Assembly (NCBI GenBank): GCA_938084675.1
Contig: CALKGM010000026.1
Location: 1-64,000 of the forward strand
DNA length: 64,000 nt
Direction: 5' to 3'
From: Candidatus Poseidoniaceae archaeon
Lineage (GTDB): Archaea > Thermoplasmatota > Poseidoniia > Poseidoniales > Poseidoniaceae
Of the stretch, positions 3,869 through 61,467 are shown piece by piece. Both the position numbers and the translations under genes were made by a program. The notes under the pieces are model-generated. The model was not told the DNA's origin, searched no databases, and worked only from the letters and a program-made list of their open reading frames with translations. Within the stretch, counting starts at the first letter, position 1. Each line of letters begins with the position of its first letter.

Positions 3869-5275
3869 CTACTTGACTTCAATGCGCTCGTTCCAGCGAG
3901 CCTTCAATTTCTCAAGAGCCGCATGAGTGAGCCACACGGTCAGCGAAACCGTTCCATTTGGGTCTCGTTCGTTTGAAGTCACCATGCCTTGGTCGTAAAT
4001 GTCTGATACAATCCGCTCAACAGCATCACCGGTATTGTCCATAGATGGATGAACATGAACCGTTGACGGCGAGCCAAACAAGTGGCGGAGTATGGCTCCT
4101 TTTAGCGTATCAATTCCAACGCCCGAATGTGCTGAAATACCAAGGGCTGGGGGAAAGCCTAGCCCTGCTACAGTTGCGTGTGCTTCGTCAAGCATATGCT
4201 CGTCGGCTTGGTCAATTTTCGTCAAGACTACCTGCATCGAATGGTGATATGGGTCCATGGCATCATTCCATGGAAATTCATCGTCTACCGGTTCACCGTA
4301 GAGCCGTTCAAACACTTCTCGTCGGGTGGTGAGGAGTTTTCGTTCGAGTTCAAGGGGGGAGTCGGAGGCATCAGCCAAAACCAGGGTCAAATCGGCTTCT
4401 AACGCCTCAGCGAGAGTTGCTTTAAATGCCGATAGAGTAGCGTTTGGTATGTTATCAATAAATCCAATGGTATCTGCAAGAAGAACGCGGGGGCTATCCT
4501 CCATACGCCCTACCGTGGTCTCTAATGTGGAAAATAATTGGTCTTCAACGAGGACTTTTTTCCCTGATAAAAGTCGGAAAAGAGACGATTTTCCAGCGTT
4601 TGTATACCCGATCAAACCTACCGTAACCGCTCCACTGCGAACCCGTTGTCGTCGGTGCTCTCGCTGAGCGTTGGTTTGTCTTATTTGCCTTCGTCGCAGG
4701 TTTGCTAACTCTCGGCCAACGTTCGCAAGAACATTTTGAAGTGCCGTTACACCACCACCACCGTATCCTGCTCGCTCTCCGGTAGTTTGCTGATGCATGA
4801 GTTCACGCAGAACGGTTCGGTCGGATTGTAACTGCGCTATTCGAACCTGCGTTCGTGCCTCAACTGAGGACGCATGAGATGTGAAAAGCGACAGCAAGAG
4901 GCGAACTCGGTCCCAAAGTTCAAGCCCAATCGTCTGACTGATGTTGACCAGTTGACGAGGCGTTGCATTGGTGTGAATAAGAACCAAGTCTACCTTGCCC
5001 CAGGGATGTTCTTTAATGGCACTTTTCCGCTCGTCAGCAACGTCCTGAAGACGGCCTTTTCCAAAGTAACTGCGAGGATCCGAACTCCCTTTTTGGTTGA
5101 TTTTCTCCACAACTAAAATACCCATTGTAGCCACTAACGCCTCAAATTCCGACGTGTCTTCTTCTCCCCGAACCAAAAGCAAGGCGTGACGGCCCTCATG
5201 GTTGGTACGAGCCTCCCCCAGAACAACACCGCCGCTTCCGGCGACGACAAAGGGGTCCTCGGGCGGTTGGGCCAT
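3869..5275 (-). CDS. hflX: GTPase HflX
   Basis: GLIGYTNAGKSSLFRLLSG (P-loop), DTIGFI, LTKID; HflX N-domain; start at MAQPPEDP avoids overlap with divergent gene. Confidence 0.88.
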   Translation of the reverse strand: MAQPPEDPFVVAGSGGVVLGEARTNHEGRHALLLVRGEEDTSEFEALVATMGILVVEKINQKGSSDPRSYFGKGRLQDVADERKSAIKEHPWGKVDLVLIHTNATPRQLVNISQTIGLELWDRVRLLLSLFTSHASSVEARTQVRIAQLQSDRTVLRELMHQQTTGERAGYGGGGVTALQNVLANVGRELANLRRRQIRQTNAQREHRRQRVRSGAVTVGLIGYTNAGKSSLFRLLSGKKVLVEDQLFSTLETTVGRMEDSPRVLLADTIGFIDNIPNATLSAFKATLAEALEADLTLVLADASDSPLELERKLLTTRREVFERLYGEPVDDEFPWNDAMDPYHHSMQVVLTKIDQADEHMLDEAHATVAGLGFPPALGISAHSGVGIDTLKGAILRHLFGSPSTVHVHPSMDNTGDAVERIVSDIYDQGMVTSNERDPNGTVSLTVWLTHAALEKLKARWNERIEVK

Positions 5276-5323
5276 GAACAGTGGGGGGATTAGCCTCATA
5301 TCAGCCCACCCCAAGACCTTGTT

Positions 5324-5545
5324 ATGGCGGAACGCCACGAAATGACCCTCACTTGGACCGGGGACCTTGAAACCGCTCACCGCTTGGTTGAATTAGCTCG
5401 CCCGCATTCATGTGAAATCAAGCCTAACGAGGAACACGATTCGGTTATCCTTACGGTAGTCGTTGTGGACCAAGATTTGCAACAATTGCGTGATACGGTT
5501 GATGCCTTACTTGTGTCCTTTGACACCGTTGAAAGCGAGGATTGA
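5324..5545 (+). CDS. KEOPS complex Pcc1-like subunit
   Basis: 73-aa MTLTWTGDLETAHRLVELARPHSC...VVVVDQDLQQLRDTVDALL resembles archaeal Pcc1. Confidence 0.55.
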   Translation: MAERHEMTLTWTGDLETAHRLVELARPHSCEIKPNEEHDSVILTVVVVDQDLQQLRDTVDALLVSFDTVESED

Positions 5546-5558
5546 CGAGGCGGTAGAT

Positions 5559-5909
5559 GTGGCGGATGTCCTCTTGATTGATGCCCACTGTGTCCTTTGT
5601 AACCGTCTCGCTAAATTCCTTAATAAACGCCGTTCAAAGAAGAGCCAACTGCACATTTATGGCATAGATTCGGAAGAAGGTATGAGATTCGTTGAGGGTT
5701 TTTCCGAATCGATCAGAGAAGCCGATTCAATGTATCTTATCCGGGCAGGTCAACCTTTCATTCGCTCAGCAGCAAGCATCCGATTGTTACTCTACATGCG
5801 CTGGTATTACACAATCTGGTATCCACTGGCATGGCTCTTTCCGCTACCACTACGAGACGGTGTGTATCGCCTGGTATCGAGGTACCGTCACCGAATGTCA
5901 AACCAATGA
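5559..5909 (+). CDS. DCC-family thiol-disulfide oxidoreductase-like (DUF393)
   Basis: VLLIDAHCVLCNRLAKFLNKR...SMYLIRAGQPFIRSAASIRLL; in-frame GTG at 5559. Confidence 0.7.
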   Translation: MADVLLIDAHCVLCNRLAKFLNKRRSKKSQLHIYGIDSEEGMRFVEGFSESIREADSMYLIRAGQPFIRSAASIRLLLYMRWYYTIWYPLAWLFPLPLRDGVYRLVSRYRHRMSNQ

Positions 5910-53342: not shown

Positions 53343-54476
53343 TTATTGCTCTGCGTGCTCTACGCCGATTTCAGCAACTCGGTGTAAGAACGCTTCAAGT
53401 TGAATACGCCCTTGTGCAGAGCGTTGCAGAGACATATCGCAAAGTGACAGGGCGTTCAAGAGTGCCGTTAGCAACTTGGGGTCAAAGTGAGAGCGACCCG
53501 CCGTCAAAAATCGATGAAAGCGATCGACGACCTCTCTTGAATCCATATCATGTGCATTCATCATTTGGTCCAAAGCCCCCATGGCCCCTTTCAATACTCG
53601 GCTGTTCTTCTCACCCTTCTTTTCCCATCGCCAATCATGGACTCGTCCTCGAAGAGCCTCCTCAAGAATGAGCTGAACTTCGCGAAGTGAGGTGTTAGCC
53701 ATGAGCGTTTGTACATTTTTACGGTCGTTCAACAAATCCCGTTGTGCGAGCAGTTGAATCATGAAGATGGCCTTCCTGAGATTCCCATTGGCTACGTGGG
53801 CTACATCGCCAACCAAGCCTAACGCTGCATCGTGCCCTTCTTTTCCAAGGATTGTGTTCAGTCGTTGCTCAATCATTACCCGTGAAAGAGTGGGAATGCG
53901 GACATGCTGGACTCTGCTGCGTAGTGCCTCAATCATTCTTGAGGGGGTATGTGTTGTGAAGATGAATCGTGCACTTCGGCTGCTTTCTTCCATCATTCTT
54001 CGCAAGTACGATTGGCGTGCATGACCGAGATAGTCGGCGTCTTCAATAACGATAATTCGTGACACTGGAGCTCGTCCGGATGATGGGTCGCGTGGTGATT
54101 CTTGTCCGGATGGAGGTGGAGTTCCATCGCCTGTGAGGCTCATGGAGTGGTCAAAGGCATCAAGACTCGTTCGGCCAGCAAGCGTATCTTCTGACCCTGA
54201 ACCCTCTGGACGTAAGAAAGCCTCAAACTTGGCCATTGCTCCAGCAGTTTTCGCGAGATCTCGTGCTTGAAGAACGTGTGTTGTCGACGACCAAGCCGGG
54301 CCGAGAACCTGTCTACAGACGAGGCGGTAAGCAGCAGTTTTTCCACAGCCTGGCGGGCCCGAAAGGAGGAGATGAGGGGGGTTGGAGCCAACGGCAGCCC
54401 TCTCAAGAGTTTGAATCAAACCTTCTGGAGCGACGAGTTCCGAAAAAAAGCGTGGCTGGTATTGCTCAAGCCACAT
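53343..54476 (-). CDS. rfcS: Replication factor C small subunit (clamp loader ATPase)
   Basis: MWLEQYQPRFFSELVAP...LLLSGPPGCGKTAAYRL...IIVIEDADYLGHARQSYLRRMMEESSRSARFIFTTH. Confidence 0.88.
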   Translation of the reverse strand: MWLEQYQPRFFSELVAPEGLIQTLERAAVGSNPPHLLLSGPPGCGKTAAYRLVCRQVLGPAWSSTTHVLQARDLAKTAGAMAKFEAFLRPEGSGSEDTLAGRTSLDAFDHSMSLTGDGTPPPSGQESPRDPSSGRAPVSRIIVIEDADYLGHARQSYLRRMMEESSRSARFIFTTHTPSRMIEALRSRVQHVRIPTLSRVMIEQRLNTILGKEGHDAALGLVGDVAHVANGNLRKAIFMIQLLAQRDLLNDRKNVQTLMANTSLREVQLILEEALRGRVHDWRWEKKGEKNSRVLKGAMGALDQMMNAHDMDSREVVDRFHRFLTAGRSHFDPKLLTALLNALSLCDMSLQRSAQGRIQLEAFLHRVAEIGVEHAEQ

Positions 54477-54532
54477 CGTCATACTAACAGCAAATTGACC
54501 AAGGTCTTTCAACTCTGCGAGAAGATAAAATC

Positions 54533-54682
54533 TCACTCAGCGTTAATGCGCTTGGTGCCGTGACGGCGGAGTTTCATGAAAATACGGGAACCGCAAGCCT
54601 TGCAGCTGATTCCGTTTCGCTCTCGATGGAACGATTCCAGGCTTCCACAGTCTGCGCATTTGTAATCTACGAGTTCAACCAT
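54533..54682 (-). CDS. rpoP: DNA-directed RNA polymerase subunit P (Rpb12-like zinc ribbon)
   Basis: MVELVDYKCADCGSLESFHRERNGISCKACGSRIFMKLRRHGTKRINAE; absent from supplied ORF track (<60 aa). Confidence 0.75.
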   Translation of the reverse strand: MVELVDYKCADCGSLESFHRERNGISCKACGSRIFMKLRRHGTKRINAE

Positions 54683-54697
54683 AATGTCTCTCTCCAT

Positions 54698-54946
54698 TCA
54701 CCGCGACCGTGCATCCCGTTTTGAACCTGTTTGTCGCGAACGCCCACGAATAAGTTCGTCAAGAGTTGCAGGAGCCATCACATAAAGTCTACCAGTCTCG
54801 TAAAGATAGGCGATTCGAGAACGTACGGCAGAAGCCGTGCGTTGATGCAAACGTGCTATTTCATTCAGACAGCATTGGCTCTCAAGATTTTCAATAAGAT
54901 CATCATCTTCTGAACCAGACCAAGTATGGCCGCTACGGGGTGACAT
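54698..54946 (-). CDS. Small Myb/SANT-like helix-turn-helix protein
   Basis: GHTWSGSEDDDLIENLESQCCLNEIARLHQRTASAVRSRIAYLYETGRLYV. Confidence 0.6.
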   Translation of the reverse strand: MSPRSGHTWSGSEDDDLIENLESQCCLNEIARLHQRTASAVRSRIAYLYETGRLYVMAPATLDELIRGRSRQTGSKRDARSR

Positions 54947-54953
54947 GTATGCC

Positions 54954-55379
54954 TCAGCAGTGGTTGCCACCAACCAAGCCGGGCATGAGGCGGATGCGGC
55001 TGCCTGCGTCAATGTTCATGTCGGCCACGTCAGCGGTACTGACGAGTTGGTCGTTAACGAACACCCAGGTTCCTGGGGCGCTTTGAGCCTTGTCTGCGAT
55101 TTCAGCTTGGGTCATGACCACTTCGGAGTGACCGGACTTGTCTGCGATTTCGACGTTGAAGGTTGGGGCGTTGCCACCAACCAAGCCGGGCATGAGGCGG
55201 ATGCGGCTGCCTGCGTCAATGTTCATGTCGGCCACGTCAGCGGTACTGACGAGTTGGTCGTTAACGAACACCCAGGTTCCTGGGGCGCTTGCGGCCTTCT
55301 CAACGATTTGTTCTTGGGTCATCTGAACCACACTGTGGCCAGATTTGTCTGCGATTTCTACTTCAAATGTATTGTCCAT
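54954..55379 (-). CDS. Tandem two-repeat ubiquitin-like (beta-grasp) protein with internal and near-terminal GG
   Basis: Two ~69-aa repeats FxVEIADKSGHS..VMTQ.....A.SAPGTWVFVNDQLVSTADVADMNIDAGSRIRLMPGLVGGN; SD-like AGGTGG upstream of ATG at 55379; TATA-like TTTATATG further upstream. Confidence 0.7.
   Translation of the reverse strand: MDNTFEVEIADKSGHSVVQMTQEQIVEKAASAPGTWVFVNDQLVSTADVADMNIDAGSRIRLMPGLVGGNAPTFNVEIADKSGHSEVVMTQAEIADKAQSAPGTWVFVNDQLVSTADVADMNIDAGSRIRLMPGLVGGNHC
54963..55083. repeat. 121-bp perfect direct repeat, copy 1
   Basis: Identical to 55170-55290, offset 207 bp (69 codons). Confidence 0.95.
55170..55290. repeat. 121-bp perfect direct repeat, copy 2
   Basis: Identical to 54963-55083. 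Confidence 0.95.
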
Positions 55380-55503
55380 GGTTTCCACCTTTGAGAAGAA
55401 GAAACTCCGACCACATATAAACCTCGGAAAAAACCAAGATTGTTTCTGTCACGGTGTTCATTTCAACTCCACAGAAGTTGAGGCCTCTAACCGGATATAA
55501 ACA

Positions 55504-56934
55504 TCAAAGTTTGAGGTTGGCTTGCCGACTCAAGAGATGGATTTGCATGCTGTGCTCAAGGATAGCAGCATTAGCCCATGCTTGGTCAAAATCTGCACCA
55601 ACTGCGTAGGCGCCGTTGCCACGGACAACAACACAACGCATGTTTCCTTGAGTAAGTGCTTCTCGAACTTGGCGAAGATAATCATCGGGCTGCTCGTCAT
55701 CGGGGTCTACAATGATGATTTTTCCGATGTGATGTTTACCGACTTCATCGATTGGATTGAGTAATACAAGGTCCTTTTCACAACTGGCAGTGGTTGTGTG
55801 AGGCGCATGCATGTGAATGACTGCTGCAGGCCCACCAGTTACCACCGATACCGACGCAAGAATGACCTCCATTACGTGCCAATCGGTAGGGGAGCCTCGT
55901 GGCGAAGTTCCCCCAAGTTGACCGGCACACAAACTTCGTTCGTTCATTCTAGGAAGCATAGCCATATGACGACTTGATACCATAATGTTAGGTTGATCGG
56001 GAGAAATCATAGCCAAACTTCCCATTGTGGCTCGAATCAAATGTTCTCGGTCAAGTTGCCTCCCCATGCGTACAAAGTCAGAAACGACGTGAGCGGGGAT
56101 GACAATGTTATTTTCCACAAGAGGGGGCATGGGCGGCTCCTCCAACTGCTCAATGACCTCAGTTGCTCCAACAACAGATTGGCGCAGGCGGGCATTTTCC
56201 ATGTGAAGCCTTTCAAGCTCCGCCTCTTTTTCCGCCAGTGCGTTGAGCATGGCCTCTGAGGGTTCTGCGGATGGAGGAATGACTTCAACGGGTTTTCCGG
56301 AATTCTCCTCATTTTTTGCGGTTGGTTCTTCAGATTCTTTAGGCTGAGGCTCTGGCATTGGCTCTGGTTCGCTCGCTGGCATAGATTCAGTGACGGTGGG
56401 GTCTTCTTCTGGCTCGGCGGTGGTTTCGTCCACGATTGCAGAAGGTTCCATCTCTGTTGTTTCTTCAACGCTAGGAAGTTCGGTTGGGACTTCCTCTGGC
56501 TCCTCGGAAGACGTTGAGTTAGATGGAGGGTCGGATGGAGGGCCGCTGGGTGGGCCGGATGGAGGACCGCTAGGGGGGCCGGATGGAGGGCCGCTGGGTG
56601 GACCGGATGGAGGGCCGCTGGGTGGGCCGGATGGAGGACCGCTGGGTGGACCGGATGGAGGGCCGCTGGGTGGGCCGGATGGAGGGCTAGAAGGAGTTGG
56701 TTCTGTTGGTTCATCATCAGACGTTGATGGCAGGGGTGAATCCTCTGCTGCTTCGCCTACGGCTGTTTGGCCTTCCTCAGGAGCCTCATCCTTTGTTTGA
56801 ACGGGTTTTGTTTCCTCATCAGGCTGTTGTTCGAGCTCGGATATGTCTCCAAAAGCTCCGCCTAGCATATTCTCTAATTGGTTATTTTCAGCTTCTTCTC
56901 GTGCGATTTCTGCTGATGTTTTCGGTTTCGCCAT
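55504..56934 (-). CDS. Acidic/Pro-rich low-complexity protein (SGPP repeats) with coiled coil and C-terminal class II aldolase/adducin-like domain
   Basis: (SGPP)n, EKEAELERLHMENARLRQ, VIHMHAPHTTTAS...VVRGNGAYAVGADFDQAWANAAILEHS. Confidence 0.7.
   Translation of the reverse strand: MAKPKTSAEIAREEAENNQLENMLGGAFGDISELEQQPDEETKPVQTKDEAPEEGQTAVGEAAEDSPLPSTSDDEPTEPTPSSPPSGPPSGPPSGPPSGPPSGPPSGPPSGPPSGPPSGPPSGPPSGPPSGPPSDPPSNSTSSEEPEEVPTELPSVEETTEMEPSAIVDETTAEPEEDPTVTESMPASEPEPMPEPQPKESEEPTAKNEENSGKPVEVIPPSAEPSEAMLNALAEKEAELERLHMENARLRQSVVGATEVIEQLEEPPMPPLVENNIVIPAHVVSDFVRMGRQLDREHLIRATMGSLAMISPDQPNIMVSSRHMAMLPRMNERSLCAGQLGGTSPRGSPTDWHVMEVILASVSVVTGGPAAVIHMHAPHTTTASCEKDLVLLNPIDEVGKHHIGKIIIVDPDDEQPDDYLRQVREALTQGNMRCVVVRGNGAYAVGADFDQAWANAAILEHSMQIHLLSRQANLKL
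56533..56688. repeat. Tandem ~24-bp (12-bp half-unit) in-frame repeat encoding SGPP
   Basis: Repeated ggatggagggccgctgggtgggcc with few substitutions. Confidence 0.85.
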
Positions 56935-57000
56935 GGTAGCACCCAATTCCCCCACATGGCGCGGCTTAAATAGCGGTTGCGCCCCCGACGGGTTAAATCT

Positions 57001-57995: not shown

Positions 57996-60806
57996 TCACT
58001 CGTTGTTTTCACGACGGCGGTTGCTGCCAGCAAGGGCTGCAATACCAACCATAGCCAACACAGAAAGTGGAGAGAGGAATGGAAGAAGTCCTGCATCTTC
58101 TGCAACATCTTCTGCAGTATCTGGTACTACGGTTCCATCTCCGCCATCTCCGTCGTTACCGACTTCATCGAGGCCAAGTTCCGAGACATCGGCACCAGCC
58201 TGCTCCAGTGCGTCTTCGAGAGCGGAGAGGTCATGGTTTTCAACATCAACAATATCACCGAGGTCTTCAAAGTCGGCCATCTCTGTTTGTGCTTCTTCGG
58301 CGGGAGCTCCGGTCAAGTAACGAATGGACATGAAGGTCATAGGCAAGTCTTGACTGTATCCAGTTGTTGCTGGTCCAGCGATGACGTACTTTTCCCCATC
58401 GTCATCCATAGCGTAAAGTCCAACGCCGATGATTGTAGCATGCTCACTACTCCACAACGGAGCCCACATACCATCAGAGTAAGGGAATTCAGGAATTTCG
58501 TTTTCTTCAAGGTCTTCAAAAGTAGTACTAAGATGGTCGGCAAAGTCTTGAGCAACATTTTCGAGGCTGGATTCACTGAATGCTTCCAAAATCGCCATGA
58601 GGCGGTCACTTGGTTCGCCTTCAGTACTCACTTCTTCACATCTCTCTATGGTGTCAAAGGCTTCGGTCTCTCCTGTTTCAACAAGCATCATAACGACGCA
58701 ATAGTCGCCCTCGTTGGAAACATCAAATTCGTCGCCAACCGTTTCGTATTGCGTCTCCTCATCGTCAAGCGATACGGTCGTTGAAGATACTTCAGTGCCA
58801 CTGTCATCTTGCACGCTAATAACGAGATCAACACCCTCGCTTGTGCCGTAGACTTCTCCTTCGTAGTAGAGGGTCATTCCTTCGCTCCATACGTCCATGT
58901 ATAGGCTCGGACCGATCCACTCTTCTTTGCACTCTGCGCCCATTTCCGACACCGTGGCCCCTGAAGCAGTCTTCATGGCGGCGTTGCTGCAGAAGGTATT
59001 CTCTCCAAGGGAAGGGGAAGTTATCATGAACGAACCGTAAATGTAGGAGTCATCGGAGGAATAATCACAAACGTCCCAATGCACAGAATCGCAGACAGTG
59101 AACTCTTCAAGGCCCATCACTGTGCCTTCGTCGTTGCTTACTGAAATCTCAAGACGGTAAAATTCGACTGCTCCTTCGTCTTCCATTTCTGAACAATCAC
59201 CTGTTCCGTCATTGATGTTGTCCCATGAAATATCCGTTCCATCCTTGCAGGTGAACATGTGGGTTCCGTCTTGGTTTTGTTCATCTTCGCCACCGCTGCA
59301 ATCGTTTTCTCCGTTGTTGACATCCTGCCATTCAAGTTCATTAGAATCGTCACAGGTGAACATACTCGTTTCACCGTCGAGGTTAAACTCCATTACGTCA
59401 ATATTTCCATAGTAATTTAATTCGTCGTTTTGGAAGTAGGTGTTGATGTAAACTTCTTGCTCGTCAGAGCCATCCTGGCAGTGTTCATACCCATCGTTAA
59501 CATACCATTGGTAAATCCAAGACCCATCGTCACACTGCCATTGATTTTCATAAGGGTCCCAGCCCGAGTCATCCGTTCCTTCAGCCAAACTGCCAGCCCA
59601 TTCGTCAAAGATGGTATCAACAATAGAATCCTCGAAACTCGCCTGAAGGTCTTCAGCGATTTCTTCACCGAAAGATAGGGTGCTCTGTGCAAGAACATTG
59701 CCTACCATGGTAAACATTACCGGATTCCCTGGGGGGCAATCCACACAAGCGAGAGCTTCAACGGTTTCACCGTTTCCGAGGTCGACCTCATATTCGTTTC
59801 CTTCCAAATCACCTTCCATTGAGAAGTATGCATTTCCTTCAAAGGCCCCATCGTAGGTGCCCGAGTGCGCGAATGCATCGGAAACCGTCAAATCAAATTC
59901 ACCAGAGTCAAGTCCAAATTCTTCGGTTGGGAGTCCTGTGAAGTAAATTTCATAATCGGCTGCGCCAGTGTAGGTTCCATCTATTTCTCCGCAAAGGTCA
60001 GCAACCTCAGCTTGGCCCCAATCGTCCCAAACTCCGTAATCATCCTCGTCATCGGTGCAATACCAATCTGTCTCGTCATTGTCGGAAGCCTCGATGTAAA
60101 TTGGGCTTTCAGCGTCAAGGCGCCAGACCGCATCGGTTGATTCCATGCTGTACCCAAAGCTGATTCCTGTAGCAAAGTCAACAGCGAGTTCTTCTCCGCC
60201 GCCTTCCAGTGCAATATCAACATCAAGCGACATGTCAGCACTCACAGTCATGTCAAGATCCATGTCGGCGCCTACAAGATTGTAGTCATCAGTGAGGTAC
60301 TCTGTGTAAAGAATGTCCACGGTGAGAACGTTCTCAAACTGGCTGATCACGTCGATGTCAATGGAATTCGCATCGCCACCAAATGATGCTGCTTCGTCCC
60401 AGTCAGTTAGGAGAACCCCGTCAAAGAGAATACCGTGTCGTAGAACAACATCGCTGGTTCGACTCCACACTTCGATATCATCTCCGTTACTGTCTTGGAT
60501 GGTTTGCATGGTGATGTCTTCTGTTTGGTGAACATAGACGTTAGAAGAGCCGGTAGTTAATTGCCCAACATCCAAGTTGAATCCAGCATCATCGGCATCA
60601 GCCATAATTTCGATGAGGAGTTCGTCGATGTTTAAGCCGCTCAAGTTGGAAAAATCGTCGTCAAGGCTGGACCAATCGTATTCAACCCCATAATAGAATT
60701 CTGAGGGCGATGCGGGTTGGGCTTGGACCATGGTAATTGGAGCAAGTGCAGTCAGCATCAGGAGGGTCACAAGTAGGCCGGATTGGGAGCGTCGTTTAAC
60801 GGACAT
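57996..60806 (-). CDS. Large secreted acidic surface protein with reduced LDLa-like motifs and C-terminal hydrophobic anchor + RRR tail
   Basis: Signal peptide MSVKRRSQSGLLVTLLMLTALAPITMVQAQP; three CxDG...(V/I)N(D/N)G..(H/D)C..(G/M)(S/E)DE motifs; LPFLSPLSVLAMVGIAALAGSNRRR. Confidence 0.72.
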   Translation of the reverse strand: MSVKRRSQSGLLVTLLMLTALAPITMVQAQPASPSEFYYGVEYDWSSLDDDFSNLSGLNIDELLIEIMADADDAGFNLDVGQLTTGSSNVYVHQTEDITMQTIQDSNGDDIEVWSRTSDVVLRHGILFDGVLLTDWDEAASFGGDANSIDIDVISQFENVLTVDILYTEYLTDDYNLVGADMDLDMTVSADMSLDVDIALEGGGEELAVDFATGISFGYSMESTDAVWRLDAESPIYIEASDNDETDWYCTDDEDDYGVWDDWGQAEVADLCGEIDGTYTGAADYEIYFTGLPTEEFGLDSGEFDLTVSDAFAHSGTYDGAFEGNAYFSMEGDLEGNEYEVDLGNGETVEALACVDCPPGNPVMFTMVGNVLAQSTLSFGEEIAEDLQASFEDSIVDTIFDEWAGSLAEGTDDSGWDPYENQWQCDDGSWIYQWYVNDGYEHCQDGSDEQEVYINTYFQNDELNYYGNIDVMEFNLDGETSMFTCDDSNELEWQDVNNGENDCSGGEDEQNQDGTHMFTCKDGTDISWDNINDGTGDCSEMEDEGAVEFYRLEISVSNDEGTVMGLEEFTVCDSVHWDVCDYSSDDSYIYGSFMITSPSLGENTFCSNAAMKTASGATVSEMGAECKEEWIGPSLYMDVWSEGMTLYYEGEVYGTSEGVDLVISVQDDSGTEVSSTTVSLDDEETQYETVGDEFDVSNEGDYCVVMMLVETGETEAFDTIERCEEVSTEGEPSDRLMAILEAFSESSLENVAQDFADHLSTTFEDLEENEIPEFPYSDGMWAPLWSSEHATIIGVGLYAMDDDGEKYVIAGPATTGYSQDLPMTFMSIRYLTGAPAEEAQTEMADFEDLGDIVDVENHDLSALEDALEQAGADVSELGLDEVGNDGDGGDGTVVPDTAEDVAEDAGLLPFLSPLSVLAMVGIAALAGSNRRRENNE

Positions 60807-60858
60807 TGATTTGGGGCGGTTTTTAGTCCATATTAAGCCTATTGATGAGGGAGGGGGG

Positions 60859-61467
60859 TTATTTTTGCCGGTTTTTCTTGTTTTCCTTGCAGACTCGGAC
60901 AAAATTTTCAAACATCTCTTTGCCGAATTCAGAATCGTTCACCTCGGGGTGGAACTGGAGCCCAAAACGGTTACCTGCCTCGTTTTCCATGCCTTGAACC
61001 CTACAGGATGGGCTGCTTGCAGTGATGAAAAAGCCCTCAGGTACTTCATGCACTTCGTCATTGTGAGACTCCCAGACCGTCTGAGTTTGTTCAGTGCCGG
61101 CGAATATCTTCCCACCCTCTCGCTCAAGATTGATTTCCATTGCTCCAAATTCAGGTTCTGGCGACTCCCGGGCATCTCCTCCATAATGCCGAGCCATAAA
61201 TTGATGGCCGGCGCATATGCCGAGAATCGGAATGTCAAGTTCCAAGAATGCCGCACAATTACCCAACTCTCCCGTCAAACCGACTCGTGCAGCTCCTCCA
61301 GAAAGGATGAGCCCGTCAAGTTCCCGCATTTCACTAACCGGCGTCGTGTTTTCAATGATTTTTGTATCCACTTTGAGGTAGCGCAACATACGCCACTCTC
61401 GGTGAGTCCATTGCCCTCCGTTGTCAACAACATCAATCACAAGAGGTTTTTCTGACATCAACGCCAC
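60859..61467 (-). CDS. guaA: GMP synthase glutamine amidotransferase subunit
   Basis: VIDVVDNGGQWTHREWRMLRYL...GLILSGGAARVG...PILGICAGHQFMA...FGLQFHPEV. Confidence 0.88.
   Translation of the reverse strand: MALMSEKPLVIDVVDNGGQWTHREWRMLRYLKVDTKIIENTTPVSEMRELDGLILSGGAARVGLTGELGNCAAFLELDIPILGICAGHQFMARHYGGDARESPEPEFGAMEINLEREGGKIFAGTEQTQTVWESHNDEVHEVPEGFFITASSPSCRVQGMENEAGNRFGLQFHPEVNDSEFGKEMFENFVRVCKENKKNRQK

Follow-up and report, generated by a model that had tools for sequence, protein, structure and literature searches.

A tandem ubiquitin-like precursor of Poseidoniales archaea with dedicated E1 and JAMM partners and a related gene set on virus contigs

A gene of Candidatus Poseidoniales (Marine Group II), the order to which the DNA was assigned by way of named loci, probably encodes the precursor of a ubiquitin-like modifier (Ubl) that is matured by a JAMM protease, activated by an E1-like enzyme and conjugated to proteins, conjugation being a step that we infer. 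The gene lies in a 64,000-nucleotide stretch of archaeal DNA (hereafter the window). The reading as a polyubiquitin-like precursor, first put forward in a first-pass annotation made from the sequence, found support in the predicted fold, in the conservation of the terminal GG, in a repeat period of 69-70 residues, and in the linkage to E1 and JAMM genes, including fusions within one open reading frame (ORF).

Table 1. Features of the window and of associated loci (positions in the window or, where a locus is named, in that locus)
Feature	Position	Strand	Remarks
di-Ubl precursor gene	54954..55379	minus	ATG-to-stop ORF, 141 aa, MDNTFE...LVGGNHC
Ubl unit 1	55173..55379	minus	69 aa, PGLVGG end
Ubl unit 2	54966..55172	minus	69 aa, PGLVGG end, no spacer after unit 1
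C-terminal tail NHC + stop	54954..54965	minus	3 residues beyond last GG
SANT/Myb-like HTH protein	54698..54946	minus	82 aa, 7 bp downstream of the Ubl gene
Dedicated E1 of the own genome	L044 6679-7308		ThiF only, no rhodanese
JAMM of the own genome	L044 6131-6682		183 aa, full motif, start overlapped by E1
Small gene of the own genome	L044 5898-6128		76 aa, after JAMM
Ubl-Ubl-E1 single-ORF fusions	L108 5789-7063; L112; L113 6181-7422
E1-JAMM single-ORF fusions	L117, L120, L121
E1-HTH fusions	L110, L122
Ubl-Cys domain single-ORF fusion	L115

The coordinates given in the first-pass annotation are exact for the ORF from its ATG to its stop codon, which lies on the minus strand (Table 1; an alternative GTG start lies at 55388), and that annotation had described two head-to-tail repeats of ~69 residues, in agreement with the 69-residue units and with the single 207-bp period, in 1.9 copies, reported by TRF. 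The protein consists of MDNTFEVEIADKSGHSVVQMTQEQIVEKAASAPGTWVFVNDQLVSTADVADMNIDAGSRIRLMPGLVGG, then NAPTFNVEIADKSGHSEVVMTQAEIADKAQSAPGTWVFVNDQLVSTADVADMNIDAGSRIRLMPGLVGG, then NHC; both units end in LMPGLVGG, and their 207-bp coding repeats differ at 32 positions, the final 118 bp being identical. The 11 identities that had been counted between a unit and residues 44-76 of human ubiquitin, over 33 ungapped residues, proved exact residue by residue, and shuffling gave an expectation of 2.15, with none of 20,000 shuffles reaching 11. Aligned as a whole with human ubiquitin, the unit scores 51 by Smith-Waterman, shuffled sequences averaging 22.5 (z 6.8, p 0.0002), and the shuffle tests thus rule out a chance resemblance. 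The tails that follow the last GG in the own genus often end in cysteine (NHC, NLC, RAC, SVC, QC, LAC).

An AlphaFold2 model of unit 1, computed from an alignment of 25 units (those of the window and of named Poseidoniales loci), has a mean pLDDT of 84.9 and a pTM of 0.70, and its elements (E4-11, E14-21, H22-31, E36-39, E42-44, H46-51, E60-63) follow the strand-strand-helix-strand-strand-helix-strand order of the beta-grasp topology. Among its Foldseek matches in the PDB, ubiquitin-like domains prevail (E 0.008-0.08, probability up to 0.99), including Mth1743, the UBL of ubiquilin and other UBL domains, SUMO, the Haloferax SAMP HVO_2177, 1wgk and ThiS; nothing in the PDB fell under 1e-3, and the best Ubl match, at 0.008, is modest. 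In a PDB profile search polyubiquitin was reached only through summed repeats, single ubiquitin standing at E 0.1-1. Direct membership in a Pfam family, raised beforehand for PF00240, PF14452 and PF02597, did not materialize: at E<=10 there was no Pfam match to ubiquitin (PF00240) or Multi_ubiq (PF14452), and the curated cut-offs were missed for ThiS/MoaD (PF02597; ThiS 21.0 bits against 22.5), Urm1 (16.4 against 21.8) and SAMP1 (18.7 against 60). Since the matches are mainly to ubiquitin-like folds and those in Pfam and NCBIfam are sub-threshold, the fold is supported and the family is none of the named ones. The beta-grasp fold proposed at the outset is therefore also that of the model and of the structure search, with no confident prediction of another fold, and the GG, the second feature on which the proposal hung, is kept by the homologs.

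Ubl matches at E up to 1 occur in 56 of 97 relatives; once the weak matches had been sorted, 55 were counted as carriers, and among 393 genomes across the phylum the family is confined to Poseidoniales. One, two, three or four units were found in 30, 26, 10 and 1 genes, respectively, the exact copy number being uncertain in short-read MAGs; the period is mostly 69-70 residues, with no spacer. GG closes 98 of the 103 distinct full cellular units (AG the other five), it is C-terminal in single-unit genes as well, and one to four residues follow the last GG in most cellular genes. Many units of other genera are only 28-49% identical to the window unit, and some Ubls (L142_7, L115) carry further domains in the same protein. 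Locus L142 holds a three-unit Ubl gene (5220-5801) followed by an ORF (4527-5153) in which a fourth unit runs into an unknown domain.

Within the two-unit genes of the own genus (n=13), units 1 and 2 of one gene share 99.1% of their C-terminal 35 residues, as compared with 83% between species; over the preceding 25 residues, identity is 66% inside a gene, 65% for the same unit between species and 52% for different units between species. At third codon positions of the C half, identity is 71-100% within genes versus 62% between species. The pattern points to gene conversion in the C half, the N halves staying unit-specific; we treat this apparent concerted evolution as a lead because short-read assembly could influence it. 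That the duplication itself is an artefact of assembly is unlikely, since many genomes, among them the single-contig genome G040 (L026, two units), have multi-unit genes whose units differ.

The HTH gene that follows the Ubl gene is probably co-transcribed with it; the two are neighbours in about 20 genomes of the own genus, and the HTH protein of the window is homologous to the HTH at the C-terminus of the E1 in L122 and L124. Other genes nearby, all on the minus strand, are recorded here in their own right. The 483-aa ORF at 55504-56955, upstream of the Ubl gene as also in L142, has a class II aldolase/adducin domain and contains a GPPS(x) tandem repeat of 12/24 bp (56522-56687); an RNA polymerase subunit P-like zinc ribbon and an RFC-like AAA protein (53343-54682) are conserved beside the Ubl in L162; and a predicted secreted protein of 971 aa (57996-60911) matches LDL-receptor class A at 24.3 bits (cut-off 24.1), which is unusual in an archaeon.

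As had been stated from the sequence, the window contains neither an E1 nor a JAMM gene, and the partner gene is absent from it too. That the system is therefore missing from the genome was considered and rejected, both genes having been found side by side on another contig, C17. Two E1-like proteins of this genome exceed the cut-off: a UbaA with a rhodanese domain (C18) and a bare ThiF protein of 209 aa (C17), the dedicated E1 of Table 1. The E1 scores 63 bits against ThiF (PF00899; cut-off 28.1) and conserves G.GGIG and SCQ, the latter present in 65/65 viral and 104/112 other E1s; its profile matches MccB, UBA3, Uba1, Uba4, ThiF and MoeB. In a PADLOC comparison with CBASS/Bil-type defence, the E1 matches the E1-E2 models over the E1 domain only, and Ubl, JAMM and the Cys protein discussed below are without match. 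The JAMM protein has the catalytic E and the HxHPx(n)SxxD motif of JAMM/MPN+ proteases, the motif HxHPx(5,6)SxxD being intact in 95 of 96 cellular and in all 63 viral proteins, and the best PDB matches of its profile are the AMSH-like protease (AMSH-LP), Sst2, STAM-binding protein and a 26S-Rpn11-like protein. The own-genome copy misses the Pfam Prok-JAB cut-off (12.6 bits against 25), so that its membership rests on motif and profile search. A second JAMM-like protein, of 275 aa (HTHPNAPAIPSGPD), is encoded at 14348-15175 of L044, ~8 kb from the E1-JAMM pair. Genes for a 20S proteasome are present in the genome, and tagged proteins might consequently be degraded, a putative fate.

In the own genus the Ubl gene does not adjoin the E1-JAMM pair; in other genera, Ubl, a 210-aa ThiF/E1, JAMM and a small helical protein form one operon, and the first three share a contig within a few kb in genera g2, g5, g6, g9, g13, g15, g16 and g19. 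Judged by sequence, the link among Ubl, E1 and JAMM gains support from the Ubl-Ubl-E1 and E1-JAMM fusions. Of the 97 genomes, 51 carry the full set of Ubl, E1, JAMM and Cys partner, 35 carry none of the four, and 11 have part of the set, these last being mostly fragmented or incomplete. Ubl and E1 occur together in 52 genomes, Ubl only in 3, E1 only in 3 and neither in 39 (27, 1, 0 and 38 outside the own genus); pairwise Fisher tests, in which phylogeny is ignored, give p ~1e-19 to 1e-21, and 1e-14 to 1e-17 outside the own genus.

Is there an enzyme that could take the place of an E2? No canonical E2 was found in the own genome with PF00179 (UBC) or PF14461 (Prok-E2_B). A domain with a cysteine that is invariant in 23/23 aligned copies adjoins Ubl or E1 in many operons and occurs in the own genome in proteins of 790 and 257 aa on other contigs; its operon position, its fusion to a Ubl and its co-occurrence combine a catalytic-type cysteine with linkage to E1, as would be expected of an E2-type protein. 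Seen by eye, the order of alpha helix, strands, Cys and alpha helix is UBC-like, yet identification as an E2 was rejected: the protein matches no Pfam family, PDB profile searches return no E2, and the best Foldseek match of its model (pLDDT 83.8) has an E of 0.42 and is not an E2. Because E2 is missing from these matches, the domain is called here the conserved-Cys partner; that it stands in for an E2 is hypothetical. On a contig of Candidatus Methanoperedens BLZ2 (L273, 2761-6071), a distant E1 stands beside a protein of 712 aa with an end resembling the Cys partner; a protein of 166 aa with a GKGG terminus comes next, and helicase genes adjoin. A mobile element may carry a related system here.

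Searched with the E1 alignment, IMG/VR yielded 307 contig stretches that encode relatives. Among the best 80 of these, JAMM lies within ~8 kb in 75, the Cys protein in 62 and a Ubl in 55, and 41/41 distinct viral Ubls end in GG plus 0-2 residues. GroEL, a TFB-like factor, ribonucleotide reductase and ATP-dependent DNA ligase are neighbours on these contigs, and magrovirus genes include GroEL/GroES, TFB and ligase (PMC10768690); by gene content the contigs thus match magroviruses, viruses of Poseidoniales, which makes the link to these hosts likely. In the E1 tree, viral E1s stand apart from cellular ones with support of 98/99 at a point where long branches meet. INPHARED phages, searched with one viral E1 and one viral Ubl, gave no match. 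In the available part of the RaFAH study, MoeB/ThiF is a prevalent auxiliary gene of archaeal viruses and is tied to ubiquitination (PMC8276007); it is probably the same gene as the viral E1 described here, and that part of the account, unlike the gene set reported here, does not mention Ubl, JAMM or Cys partner. A contig filed under Maricaulis sp. (L271, NZMJ01000151) falls in the viral E1 group, carries a TFB-like gene, E1, HTH, JAMM and an archaeal-type DNA ligase, and is probably a mis-binned virus contig; five loci filed as bacteria (L231, L245, L251, L262, L268) look like mis-binned Poseidoniales.

How might these proteins work together? In the mechanism we propose, JAMM would cleave behind every GG, which would free the units from one another and trim off the short tail. 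The dedicated E1 would adenylate the exposed GG and may load the Ubl onto its invariant SCQ cysteine; directly or by way of the conserved-Cys partner, the E1 would pass the Ubl on to lysines of target proteins, and JAMM would also strip it from its targets again. In Caldiarchaeum, Rpn11/JAMM was shown to cleave pro-ubiquitin and thereby to enable activation by E1 (PMC5654768), and by this analogy maturation of the chain is the most likely task of the Poseidoniales JAMM, with removal of the modifier a possible second one. The HTH protein may tie the system to DNA or transcription, and the viral version presumably tags or untags host or viral proteins. Taken one step further, the genes could tentatively form a separate and complete conjugation system. 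Its precursor would be polyubiquitin-like, JAMM would act as both maturase and deconjugase, the E1 would be minimal, and transfer would fall to a Cys protein unlike the E2 fold. Poseidoniales cells and the magroviruses infecting them would each have their own version, the two having long been separate; we hold this fuller account to be less probable than its rejection.

Bacterial operons of Ubl, E1 and JAMM (JAB) genes also serve sulfur carriers, and the Ubl could accordingly be a JAMM-processed carrier whose E1-activated GG becomes a thiocarboxylate that hands sulfur to a tRNA or metabolite. ThiS, Urm1 and SAMP1 are indeed its best sub-threshold families, and its E1 belongs to the ThiF superfamily. 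We nevertheless regard a sulfur carrier as unlikely, given that the dedicated E1 is devoid of rhodanese, that the operons inspected showed no recognisable sulfur-transfer gene, and that tandem units and a viral version would be unexpected; protein conjugation is favoured because the genome has, besides its UbaA-rhodanese E1, a separate MoaD-like protein with GG as its very last residues, because the units come in tandem, and because JAMM is nearest to deubiquitinases in the PDB. The same UbaA-rhodanese and MoaD-like pair, which appears to handle sulfur chemistry in this genome, lowers further the odds of a Ubl that both carries sulfur and modifies proteins, a combination with which Ubl, E1 and JAMM would be consistent and which is known from Haloferax SAMPs and Urm1 (PMC7911844); we consider such a dual function improbable. 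Least credible of all is an unprocessed structural or binding repeat of ubiquitin-like fold, with GG a feature of the fold or of a linker: the few units ending in AG and the fused Ubls of L142_7 and L115 would suit it, whereas the C-terminal GG of single-unit genes and of all 41 viral proteins speaks against it, as do the strict co-occurrence with E1 and JAMM and the fusions to them.

The proposed JAMM-matured precursor has relatives of several kinds, and the literature agrees with the first-pass annotation that archaeal SAMPs (PMC4443979), Caldiarchaeum ubiquitin (PMC5654768) and bacterial multi-ubiquitin systems (PMC1779556) exist. Eukaryotic polyubiquitin (UBB/UBC) likewise has spacerless head-to-tail units, GG in each, a short final tail and partial within-gene homogenisation; by contrast, Poseidoniales units diverge widely between genera, in the own genus only the C-terminal half is homogenised, maturation is likely to be by JAMM, and no E2 was identified. 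The operon of Caldiarchaeum subterraneum (PMC5654768) shares an archaeal Ubl with a tail past its GG and nearby E1 and Rpn11/JAMM genes, a likeness echoed by the 26S-Rpn11-like structure among the matches of the Poseidoniales JAMM profile; it differs from Poseidoniales, where no canonical E2 was found, the E1 is a bare ThiF, the units are in tandem, and Ubl-E1 and E1-JAMM fusions occur. Tandem Ubls with E1 and JAB are also found in bacterial Ubl/E1/E2/JAB operons, and were compared to polyubiquitin there already (Iyer et al. 2006, PMC1779556), whereas the Poseidoniales family matches neither Pfam multi-ubiquitin nor the prokaryotic E2 family tested, is limited to one archaeal order and has viral copies. 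Haloferax SAMP/UbaA/HvJAMM1 (PMC4443979, PMC4895103) similarly joins an archaeal Ubl, an E1-like protein and a JAMM deconjugase, but SAMPs are single-unit and UbaA is unlike the dedicated short E1. Archaeal Ubl-E1 and Jab-E1 fusions were known before (PMC2948915). A literature search, with many journals outside its reach, found the Ubl system undescribed in Poseidoniales or magroviruses and no paper pairing magrovirus with ubiquitin, which points to an undescribed version of ubiquitin tagging whose kind is itself known.

Poseidoniales are among the commonest archaea of the surface ocean. A polyubiquitin-like precursor served by a dedicated E1 and JAMM, with counterparts in viruses, would extend the history of ubiquitin signalling by an independent branch, and the system would be small enough to be rebuilt in vitro; the Cys partner is a candidate substitute for E2. 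It would also suggest that marine archaea and their viruses contend with, or control, each other through protein tagging.
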